Shown piece after piece: positions 48,956-53,185 of a DNA stretch of 64,000 bases (within the stretch, counting starts at the first letter, position 1; each line of letters begins with the position of its first letter). The notes below the pieces were generated by a model. The model was not told where the DNA came from. It did no database searches and was given only the letters and a program-made list of their open reading frames with translations. Source of the stretch: Methylomusa anaerophila (GTDB taxonomy: Bacteria; Bacillota; Negativicutes; Sporomusales; Sporomusaceae); NCBI RefSeq assembly GCF_003966895.1, contig NZ_AP018449.1:875424-939423 (forward strand), written 5' to 3'. A program made the translations under genes and the position numbers.

Positions 48956-49462
48956 CTAATATATATCTTGATGATTAAACTCTGCCGCTTCTACCCAGTC
49001 ATTAACATGGTTCAACATTTCAATAATATTATCAATCAGTTCAACATGGTTTTCTTCCTCATGCATAAGTTGTTCCCAAATCATTTTTTCCTCTAGCTTT
49101 TCTGCATTTTCTTTTAGTTTTTTATAAAGCTCTACACTCTCTTTCTCTTTTACCAGCGCTGCTCTGTATATGTCAATTTGTTCGTCTTTTAGTTTTGCAA
49201 TTAACTCGCTATTTCCGGTAACAAAATCTTTATTTGTATTAATTGCAAAAACATTTGGTGTTTTGCTTAAAGAAGGATCAGCCTCAATATGGTTCAAAGT
49301 TTGTTTTTGGATCAACTGAATAATTTTATAGTGGCGCTGCTCATCTGTCGCAAGACCTTCTAAAACCGTTTTTAGGTCATTATATTTAACTCCTTCGGCA
49401 AGCTCTCTATAATATTTTTCACCATCCAATTCCATTTTTAATGCAAAATCAAAAATATTCAT
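48956..49462 (-). CDS. Ferritin-like (rubrerythrin-type) diiron protein
   Basis: 168 residues, starting [21 protein letters not shown], with the ferritin-like four-helix pattern: Glu in [12 protein letters not shown] in [12 protein letters not shown] in [10 protein letters not shown], and EENH in [10 protein letters not shown]. These fit the two E-x-x-H pairs of a diiron site. Members reduce peroxide or store iron. A strong AGGAGGGAGG site 6-8 nt upstream marks ATG 49462 as its own start, although the frame is open further upstream into a GIY-YIG sequence. Confidence 0.82.
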
Positions 49463-49735
49463 GATTATACCTCCCTCCTGATTGTAAAGCAGCATCCCTG
49501 CTCCTAATAACTGCTCTTTTTCCTGACGTGTCAAACTCTTGATCTCCCATTCCCGTCTCTGAGCCTGACTCTGATCAGGCTGATACTCCCAGTATACCAG
49601 ACAAACGGGAAGCCGGCTGCGGGTATAGCGTGCCCCGGTTCCCTTGTTATGAGCGGCAAGTCTTGCGGCAAGCTCGGCAGCCCAGCCTGTATAATAGGTT
49701 CCGTCCGCACATTGAAGAATATAGGTGTAGGGCAT
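48956..49735 (-). CDS. GIY-YIG endonuclease-like domain reading through into the ferritin-like protein
   Basis: From ATG 49735 (AAAGGA 7 nt upstream) the first ~82 residues are a YhbQ/UvrC-type GIY-YIG domain ([20 protein letters not shown], then [13 protein letters not shown] and [12 protein letters not shown]). No stop separates it from the ferritin-like gene; the intervening codons [10 protein letters not shown] are the translated ribosome-binding site. Single-domain relatives normally stop after ~85-95 residues. Either the stop was lost and a 259-residue fusion is made, or both a fusion and the internal product exist. Confidence 0.65.
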
Positions 49736-49749
49736 ATCTTTATCCTTTA

Positions 49750-50361
49750 TCAACTACCGGGTCCGGGCTGAATGGTTATTTTTTTAATCACAACATTTTC
49801 CACCGGCTTGTCATTGGGGCCGGTTTTGCTTTTACCGATGGCCTGCACCACTTCCAGCCCCTCCACTACTTTGCCAAAAACCGCATGGTGTTTGTCAAGC
49901 CAGGGAGTGGCTACCAGGGTGATAAAAAACTGGGAGCCGCCGGTATTAGGGCCGGCGTTGGCCATTGATAAGATTCCTGGTCCGCTGTGTTTTAATTCCG
50001 GATTAAACTCATCAGGAATGGTATAGCCCGGCCCCCCTGTCCCGTTACCTCTCGGGTCGCCGCCTTGGATCATGAAACCGTCAATAACCCGGTGAAAAAT
50101 CAGTCCGTCATAGAACTTTTTATTCACCAGGGTAATGAAATTCTGACTGGTAATGGGAGCTTTATCTTCGAAAAGCTCTACTTTAAAATTTCCCATTGAT
50201 GTCTCAAACAAGGCGATGCTGTTTTTCTTCGCGGCGGCCTGGTTCTGCCCGGAATCAGAAGCCGGCGGATCGGCGGACGGTCCTGCCGCCCGGCCTGCAC
50301 AGCCGGTCAGCAACAGGCCGGCTGCCAATACCAATACAAAAAATAAGCGAAGTGATTTCAT
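49750..50361 (-). CDS. Cyclophilin-type peptidyl-prolyl isomerase lipoprotein
   Basis: The 203-residue protein starts [23 protein letters not shown] (lipobox LTGC), has a short Pro/Ser/Asp linker, then a cyclophilin domain: [15 protein letters not shown] (catalytic Arg, Phe, Gln), GGSQFFITL and [10 protein letters not shown]. It would help fold exported proteins outside the membrane. ATG 50361 follows GGAGGG at 6 nt. The gene precedes the GIY-YIG gene by 14 nt and may share its transcript. Confidence 0.92.
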
Positions 50362-50876: not shown

Positions 50877-52082
50877 TTATGTTGATTTCAGCTTATCTTT
50901 TTGTGATTTATATGCATCTTTAATCTGTTTGTATTCTTCAGTATCTACTATGCTATCCGGATTTTTCTCCAAATTGGTTTTTGCATCCTGGGCACTTCGT
51001 ATTTGGCCGTTAATACCACTGATTTGCCCCTCAATAGCAGTAAGCTGTGTAAGAAAGACGGAAGCTGTGTCGATCATACCTTGATCTTTAAATTGCTTCA
51101 CAATACCTTCGAGCTTTTTGCGGAGCGCCGTTAAGTCCTTAAGTTGCCCCTGCAATTCTTTTATTGTTGCATCATAGTTGTGCATTGCATTGGAATAGGC
51201 GGCACCTTTATGATAGCCTTCGATGTTATTTCTTATAGCAGCAGTGACCTTTTCCCTCACACCTTCCGAAAGGCCGGCCAGTTTGTCGGTGTTTTCCAGT
51301 AAAGCGTTCCATTTAGCCATGATATTTCCGGCCTTATCTGGGTCTGTATATTTGTAAGGAGAGTCCGAAGAAATGGGGGTGCCAGGGAAAGGCGAAAGCG
51401 ACATGGAGGACAGATCTTTAATGATATCTGACACAATACGAAGATCCTTGTAAGACATATTCTCTAAGGTATTGTCAGCAGGGATGGATTTCAGTGAGGA
51501 GTTTATTTTGGAACGTAAATCCTTGTCACTAAGTTCAGGATTGTTTTTTACTACTTCCAGTGCCTGCATAGCAAGGTCTACCAGATGCTCTTTAAACGAA
51601 CTGCTGTTAAACACTGGGGCATTAGTAGTCATATCCTTATTAAGCGTTTTCAGGGTATTAGGGGTATAGTCAAAGAAATTCTCAAAGGTACCGGCTACTG
51701 TTTCGGCAGCTTTGGCTACCTGCTCTTTGTAGACGTCGTCAAGTACCTTTAGGTTTTCTTCTATGTCTGTGCTTGAGGAATTATCCATGATCTCTTTACG
51801 CAGTTTTTGATAGGTTACTGCATAATCTTCAACAAAGGATGTAGTTGGTTTACTTTTCCCCTCAAACTGACTTGCTAAATATTTCTTGTCAATTTGCGTT
51901 GTTTGTGATGAACTCAAATCAAGAGTGTATGCAGAAGAAATTCCGGATGACTGAGCCGATGATGAACTATTAAAAACAACTTCATTACTATCTTTCTTAA
52001 AGTTGGTGGCCTTACGAAAAGCAACATTGCTTTCTGAGATAAAATTAGGCGCTTGATAGTTTCTTATGCAATTGATATTCAT
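50877..52082 (-). CDS. Orphan coiled-coil protein, 401 residues
   Basis: No family recognised and no signal peptide or membrane segment. Residues ~35-60 are Ser-rich (NSSSSAQSSGISSAYTLDLS), the middle is helical, and the last ~130 residues form heptad-like coiled coil (ATIKELQGQLKDLTALRKKL, ISGINGQIRSAQDAKTNLEK). This composition recalls exported flagellum-type or surface-appendage proteins, but there is no proof. GGGAG stands about 9 nt before ATG 52082. The N-terminal style (MNINCIRNYQAPNF) resembles the broken gene at 26638-27185. Confidence 0.65.
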   Translation of the reverse strand: MNINCIRNYQAPNFISESNVAFRKATNFKKDSNEVVFNSSSSAQSSGISSAYTLDLSSSQTTQIDKKYLASQFEGKSKPTTSFVEDYAVTYQKLRKEIMDNSSSTDIEENLKVLDDVYKEQVAKAAETVAGTFENFFDYTPNTLKTLNKDMTTNAPVFNSSSFKEHLVDLAMQALEVVKNNPELSDKDLRSKINSSLKSIPADNTLENMSYKDLRIVSDIIKDLSSMSLSPFPGTPISSDSPYKYTDPDKAGNIMAKWNALLENTDKLAGLSEGVREKVTAAIRNNIEGYHKGAAYSNAMHNYDATIKELQGQLKDLTALRKKLEGIVKQFKDQGMIDTASVFLTQLTAIEGQISGINGQIRSAQDAKTNLEKNPDSIVDTEEYKQIKDAYKSQKDKLKST

Positions 52083-52396: not shown

Positions 52397-52606
52397 CCAC
52401 AGGCATATTACAGCAATTCAAGGTTAGTCTGGATGAAATGATTGAAACTGCGATTAATCTGATCGGCGTAGGAGTCAAGAATACTGTGTCTACAAAACGC
52501 CCATCTTTGTAGTATAGTTTATACCATTTGGTTCTAATGTACTCTACGATTCGTTTATTGATAGTATTTGAATTATACTCTAAACTTTATTTCGGAGGTG
52601 ATCTTA

Positions 52607-53185
52607 ATGAACTGCGACATAATCGGCAAGTTAATCTGTAATCTACGAAAAGAAAAAGAAATGACGCAAAAGCAATTGGCTGATTTGATGAATATCAGTG
52701 ATAAAACCATAAGTAAATGGGAGCGTGGCCTTGGATGTCCGGATGTATCATTACTCCCGGAACTGTCACAAATACTCGGAGTCAATATTGAAGAAATCCT
52801 CTCAGGCAAAGTTGAATTAAATGAAACTATTGGGGGAAATATGAAAAAGCTTAAATTTTATGTCTGCCCGCAGTGTAATAATCTCTTGACGGCAACAGGC
52901 GATGCCAATATTTCATGTTGCGGCAAGAAATTGAAAGCATTAGTTGCAGCAAATGCAAATGAGGACCATTTATTAAATATAGAGCCTGTAGAAGATCAGC
53001 TATATGTTTCATCATCCCACGAAATGAAAAAAGAGCATTATATATCTTTTGTTGCTTATATCGCGGGGGATAGAGTTTTTATCGTAAAGCAATATCCTGA
53101 ATGGGATATGCAATTTCGCTTTCATAAGTTAGGGCACGGCAAATTATATTTTTTTTGTTCAAATCATGGACTATTTTATCAATGA
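52607..53185 (+). CDS. XRE-type regulator fused to a desulfoferrodoxin-like domain
   Basis: The 192-residue protein has an XRE helix-turn-helix at residues 4-62 (LRKEKEMTQKQLADLMNISD, TISKWERG), then a zinc/iron-ribbon-like module with C87, C90, C104, C105 (the centre I pattern of desulfoferrodoxin), then a superoxide-reductase-like domain in which H121, H138, H144, C184 and H187 match the positions of the His4-Cys iron site (SSSHEMKKEHYIS; CSNHG). It could sense superoxide, oxygen or iron through this centre. ATG 52607 follows GGAGGTG. Targets unknown. Confidence 0.8.
   Translation: MNCDIIGKLICNLRKEKEMTQKQLADLMNISDKTISKWERGLGCPDVSLLPELSQILGVNIEEILSGKVELNETIGGNMKKLKFYVCPQCNNLLTATGDANISCCGKKLKALVAANANEDHLLNIEPVEDQLYVSSSHEMKKEHYISFVAYIAGDRVFIVKQYPEWDMQFRFHKLGHGKLYFFCSNHGLFYQ

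Follow-up and report, generated by a model that had tools for sequence, protein, structure and literature searches.

Organization of the locus

The analysed window, a 64,000-nucleotide stretch of the Methylomusa anaerophila genome, contains an open reading frame of 192 codons plus stop that was re-read and agrees with the initial annotation in extent, coordinates and residue numbers. It encodes an XRE-family regulator in which a helix-turn-helix (HTH) precedes a domain derived from superoxide reductase (SOR) of the desulforedoxin-containing type (Dx-SOR). The features of the gene and its upstream region are as follows.

52541..52561, + strand: candidate operator ACTCTACGATTCGTTTATTGA, from upstream motif comparison
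52544–52554: dyad CTACG-N3-CGT within the candidate operator
52558..52586, + strand: predicted promoter, −35 TTGATA (52558–52563), 17 bases, −10 TAAACT (52581–52586)
52594..52599, + strand: ribosome-binding site GGAGGT, read directly
52607..53185, + strand: gene of the XRE regulator with Dx-SOR-derived domain, 192 aa plus stop
52607..52816, + strand: HTH_3 DNA-binding domain, residues 1–70, from the HTH_3 match
52844..52942, + strand: desulforedoxin-like domain with Cys4 site, from profile-profile alignment; codons C87 52865, C90 52874, C104 52916, C105 52919
52943..53182, + strand: SOR-like domain with His4Cys site, from model, structure matches and alignment; codons H121 52967, H138 53018, H144 53036, C184 53156, H187 53165
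52964: codon of D120, which stands in place of the SOR lysine

Residues 13–64 matched HTH_3 in Pfam with 53.8 bits against a curated cut-off of 23, and the Dx-SOR fold follows at residues 80–192, bearing out the earlier proposal that SOR metal sites lie behind a helix-turn-helix. Alignment of the relatives (142 distinct proteins, left from 165 member loci after removal of identical proteins and those shorter than 180 aa) showed that the recognition stretch SDKTISKWE is nearly invariant. Two cysteines of the HTH domain, C3 (window 52613) and C44 (window 52736), are kept in 98 and 114 of the 142 relatives, respectively, and could be a second redox handle.

The regulator's operon in this genome contained no partner gene, and neither the divergent upstream neighbour (401-aa ORF, 50877–52082, − strand) nor the downstream 191-aa ORF had a Pfam match; the neighbours were therefore rejected as a clue to function. 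Elsewhere in the window, one open frame (48956–49753, − strand) by eye begins like GIY-YIG and ends like ferritin/rubrerythrin, and probably represents two genes in phase.

Relationship of the C-terminal half to superoxide reductase

Comparison of the C-terminal half with 1dfx by phmmer gave 3e-6, and profile-profile alignment with nine stand-alone Dx-SORs gave E=1e-20 over residues 80–192, with all nine ligand columns (four of Cys4 and five of His4Cys) aligned. An AlphaFold2 model, whose input alignment comprised 67 sequences gathered in this analysis, had a mean pLDDT of 89.6. Its C-terminal part best matched SOR structures (1y07, Z 14.0, rmsd 2.2 Å, 113 residues; 1dfx, Z 13.1, rmsd 2.7 over 111 residues), and Foldseek gave 3.5e-8 for 2ji2. 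The VIA-align and Foldseek lists were crowded by HTH rows, and absences from them carry no weight. These data confirm a relationship between the C-terminal half and SOR that far exceeds chance similarity. The regulator is nevertheless too diverged for the curated families, scoring 12.7 bits for PF01880 (cut-off 22.2) and 33.4 bits for TIGR00320 (cut-off 146.9). Compared with the Dx-SOR or desulfoferrodoxin enzymes (1dfx; Desulfoarculus baarsii SOR, 2ji1), it has the same fold and aligned ligands, but lacks the SOR lysine, adds an HTH and falls below the Pfam and NCBIfam cut-offs.

The architecture was already in print in 2011, when SORGOdb listed an HTH-Dx-SOR class of 19 proteins (PMC3116461). 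The order of HTH, desulforedoxin and SOR is the same, and the centre II spacing (H138-X5-H144 and C184-X2-H187) matches HX5H ... CX2H; however, the cysteine spacing is CX2CX13CC where that paper states CX2CX15CC. Because of X13 instead of the stated X15, the regulator is here called HTH-Dx-SOR-like rather than a filed SORGOdb member. In the accessible part of the SORGOdb paper the class is given no operator, regulon or function (PMC3116461), and in the open-access literature we found no paper on the function of such a regulator or on such an oxygen-species sensor. What is new here is the lysine loss, the operator and the linked genes elsewhere. Treponema TrtA was rejected as a counterpart, since it is described as having 104 aa, without the SOR part (PMC12724145).

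Conservation of the metal sites

The initial annotation had described both metal sites as complete-looking. This held for the ligands: C87, C90, C104 and C105 are kept and align column for column with those of SOR, as do the five of the His4Cys site. It did not hold for the lysine, replaced by D120, or for the cysteine spacing. The residue before the first His is Lys in 61 of 61 stand-alone SORs (preceded by Glu in 60 and Lys in one), whereas the pair is ED in the regulator, and Lys is present in 10 and lost in 132 of the 142 relatives. The SORs compared come from Bacillota genomes (64 loci less L230, L247 and L250, which failed the pattern) and form a biased set, about half being top-scoring neelaredoxin-type hits. 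In the D. baarsii enzyme this lysine is described as hydrogen-bonding the iron-peroxide (PMC2824530). Judged from these residues, the Dx-SOR half is not a full SOR.

The two sites differed in their constancy. All four cysteines of Cys4 are kept in 141 of the 142 relatives, and the full His4Cys set in 89, leaving it incomplete in 53. Counted singly, H138 was retained in 142, C184 in 141, H144 in 139, H187 in 125 and H121 in 106. The 36 replacements at position 121 were E25, D3, P4, Y1, N1, K1 and L1 (28/36 Glu or Asp), and the 17 at position 187 were D15, K1 and G1 (15/17 Asp). On a weakly supported tree (61 of 139 inner branches open), H121 loss required four changes, including one large clade, and H187 loss at least 14; flavoprotein partners are common in the clade with Glu for H121. 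Because the ligands persist by mostly acidic exchange, it is more likely that the SOR-type site has been retuned than discarded.

A candidate operator at the regulator's own promoter

The conserved dyad ACTCTACGnnnCGTTTATTGA (52541–52561) abuts the −35 of the regulator's own promoter. Among the 142 regulator upstream regions, the 8-mer ACTCTACG occurred in 92, compared with 0 in a shuffle, and ACTCTACGNNNCGTTTATTGA within five mismatches occurred in 120, nearly always 64–75 bases before the start codon; the reversed pattern was found in 2/142, and 250 bases downstream yielded 5/138. Either the motif or its perfect palindromic form CTAC[GT]-N3-CGTAG precedes 126 of the 142 members. The motif's right end doubles as the −35, and TAnnnT follows 19–21 bases after the core at 82 of 84 core sites, against a background of 9%. 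A promoter scan of the region recovered the TTGATA/TAAACT pair, yet the promoter count was no higher than chance, so that the promoter call in the window rests on the comparison.

Neither operator form was found for the remaining 16 members; several show a half-decayed dyad on reading, and others lie behind the conserved end of an upstream coding sequence, with which they may be co-transcribed. In one subclade without the operator (L124, L126, L128, L129, L213, L215, L223 and L224), the regulator is preceded by the end of a different coding gene with seemingly conserved final residues; this is perhaps a different operon and target.

Comparison across genomes strongly supports the proposed binding of the HTH to the dyad CTACGnnnCGT at about −43, and as this dyad adjoins the regulator's −35, the regulator would control its own expression. 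The lambda CI and P22 c2 repressors share the HTH fold (2r1j, Z 10.5) and have a dyad operator like the candidate one here, but their sensor domain and signal differ from those of the regulator. The activation site of lambda CI lies near −42, and the position of the dyad beside the −35 is compatible with activation in the manner of CI and equally with repression.

Distribution of regulator, operator and linked genes

Relatives were present in 35 of 398 Bacillota-wide genomes, 40 of 200 genomes of the class and 14 of 45 of one other family, and a separate scan yielded 384 encoding stretches. Relatives were found in 2 of 72,556 plasmid and 1 of 50,697 phage records; because these are so few, the idea that the regulator is mainly mobile-element cargo was rejected. 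A link to stand-alone SORs was likewise set aside: PF01880 matched in 23 of 35 carriers (two weakly) and in 212 of the 398 genomes overall, so the occurrence of stand-alone SORs does not follow that of the regulator.

The strict motif occurred in 11 of the 398 genomes, comprising 10 of the 35 gene carriers and 1 of the 363 others (Fisher 8e-11), and the sole non-carrier site lies inside a coding frame. Exact CTCTACGNNNCGTDDRTWG gave 48 sites in 42 of 80 carrier genomes, with 0 for the reversed control, and 39 sites in 35 of 47 genomes of a further carrier set, with 2 for the reversed control, both in one genome. Eight genomes occur in both sets (same contig coordinates), and counting their 9 sites once left 78 distinct sites. 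Of these, 62 precede the regulator (some placed by coordinates, not by reading sequence), 13 precede partner genes, 2 lie in coding frames (G417 and G332) and 1 at a contig end. Operator and regulator gene thus go together. The 13 sites before partner genes were arranged as follows.

Before CAT alone: G404, G631
Before flavoprotein alone: G214, G445, G432
Before the 120-aa protein: G014, G627
Before the 120-aa protein and DUF2087: G497
Before the 120-aa protein and flavoprotein: G412
Before the 120-aa protein, DUF2087 and flavoprotein: G648
Before operons including the regulator: G237 (flavoprotein-regulator), G418, G631 (120-aa protein, DUF2087 and regulator)

In G166, a flavoprotein is preceded by a site at one mismatch. 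Propionispora sp. 2/2-37 is among the carriers with a candidate flavoprotein target in trans. The name GIY-YIG for the 120-aa partner was dropped, as it had no Pfam match. Nearly all partners meet in one cluster at L311 (G418:C5:113000-117500), which contains the operator, a broken-regulator-like start, the 120-aa protein, DUF2087, CAT, an intact regulator and a flavoprotein.

On the same strand, at distances up to about 1.1 kb, the 142 regulators had as partners a flavoprotein in 17 cases, CAT in 14, an isochorismatase-family hydrolase in 9, LytTR in 3 and DUF2087 in 2; one locus has both flavoprotein and CAT, and 99 regulators had no such partner, some owing to a contig end. Pfam was run on representatives of the tight partners (CAT 3/12, flavoprotein 4/6, isochorismatase 2/7, response regulator 2/5), the remaining assignments coming from tblastn or the start of the sequence. 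Flavoprotein and CAT partners each required 12–13 changes on the tree, and their association with the regulator appears either repeated or often lost, the tree being too weak to say which. The hydrolase is found in the regulator operon of Paenibacillus and relatives. In the window's own clade the first clustering revealed no conserved gene neighbourhood, and a flavoprotein lies downstream of the regulator in L008, L178 and L195. A LytTR response regulator directly follows the regulator in L060, L064, L115, L117 and L118 (by Pfam in L060 and L117). One regulator-CAT operon with a standard operator (L063) is in a record named outside Bacillota (Calditrichales bacterium MX18-03), reflecting either transfer or a binning error.

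The compact motif C-X2-C-X2-C-X(6-8)-C or similar was present in all 21 partner flavoproteins among the 28 ORFs listed; the other seven are homologues that do not adjoin a site (window genome, L028 or L294), and four of them lack the motif. Iron-sulfur flavoproteins carry such a motif, and a role in reducing O2 and H2O2 to water has been proposed for them (PMC3164229). The CAT partners closely resemble true CATs (9m5s, 7e-47) and likely acetylate a substrate.

In the window genome the sole operator site is at the regulator's own promoter. Allowing 3 mismatches gave 4 further sites against 2 control hits, with no real second target among them. This genome also holds two intact neelaredoxin-type SORs, with the operator before neither, and a flavoprotein target was rejected there, the best homologues being about 41% identical over part of their length and none having a site. 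The comparison supports an autoregulated single gene in this genome; further targets, if any, would use another sequence.

A proposed redox switch derived from an enzyme

The best-supported reading of these comparisons is a transcription factor that works through a metal centre of SOR origin; the operator, well supported as a candidate together with its regulon, and the iron-sulfur flavoproteins in that regulon provide its context. Fold, ligand alignment, operator and regulon are each supported by comparison, and metal is presumed in both sites. The protein would act as an XRE-family dimer, with a Dx-SOR enzyme domain turned sensor as its sensing half. The Cys4 site would hold the dimer together; the SOR-type site, with its metal ligands kept and the lysine that helps protonate peroxide gone, would bind or react slowly with O2, superoxide or peroxide and relay the effect to the HTH. 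The HTH, on the dyad CTACGnnnCGT and touching its own −35, would then either activate or repress its gene, and in relatives, in cis or via the same operator at another locus, would control the iron-sulfur flavoprotein, CAT, the isochorismatase-family hydrolase, or DUF2087 with the 120-aa protein. We regard an autoregulating redox- or oxygen-responsive switch with a catalysis-crippled SOR site as an evenly balanced proposition, in which the signal is the inferred part.

The earlier suggestion of a transcription factor sensing superoxide or oxygen directly survives in part: the SOR-derived centre, in the context of the operator and the flavoprotein regulon, speaks for a transcription factor of this kind, and the absent lysine, the greater constancy of Cys4 and the incomplete His4Cys set in 53 of 142 relatives, including the Glu-121 clade rich in flavoprotein partners, speak against direct sensing. 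For the CAT and isochorismatase partners, a link to small-molecule stress is at least as plausible as one to oxygen.

Those partners, which are not oxygen enzymes, lend some weight to a rather unlikely alternative, in which the C-terminal domain serves for dimerization and as a small-molecule pocket with structural metal (Zn or Fe in Cys4), and the signal is a drug-like compound or a quinone or nitro compound modified by CAT, the flavoprotein reductase or the isochorismatase-family hydrolase. The constancy of Cys4 beside a drifting His4Cys agrees with such a pocket, as does the described rise of iron-sulfur flavoproteins in metronidazole-resistant Entamoeba (PMC4419850). However, complete or near-complete retention of H138, H144 and C184, with mostly carboxylate swaps elsewhere, argues for a kept rather than a decaying metal site. 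Carboxylate swaps might also alter metal choice or affinity, as would suit sensing of nitric oxide or of iron or zinc supply instead of oxygen species. Reduced SOR iron reportedly binds NO, according to a paper title in the SORGOdb reference list; we consider this reading improbable, as no NO-detoxifying or metal-uptake gene lay behind the operator among the sites read. A working SOR with its own HTH merely for autoregulation would suit the relatives with all five ligands and the single site in the window genome, but is hardly credible given the widespread lysine loss, the changed ligands, the operator before other genes elsewhere and the two intact SORs already present.

Returning to the redox switch, a bolder and distinctly tentative extension is that the family, present in about a tenth of the sampled Bacillota genomes, represents an SOR disarmed by loss of its proton-donating lysine, a slow iron sensor retuned by repeated His-to-Asp/Glu swaps, which runs a small portable defence set through one operator as a counterpart of SoxR from another fold. 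By this set we mean the O2-reducing iron-sulfur flavoprotein, the CAT-type acetyltransferase, the isochorismatase-family hydrolase and the DUF2087 pair. The likeness to Escherichia coli SoxR is functional: both would be local redox-responsive regulators that contain a metal centre and act on genes for oxidative or drug stress; SoxR is a MerR-family protein with [2Fe-2S], and the two are not known to be homologous.

Should the SOR-type iron site prove to be the sensor, a transcription switch would have arisen in bacteria from an enzyme that consumes superoxide. From the operator, targets can be predicted in other genomes; CAT-family acetyltransferases are among them, and their regulation would, if this is true, be linked to redox or chemical stress.
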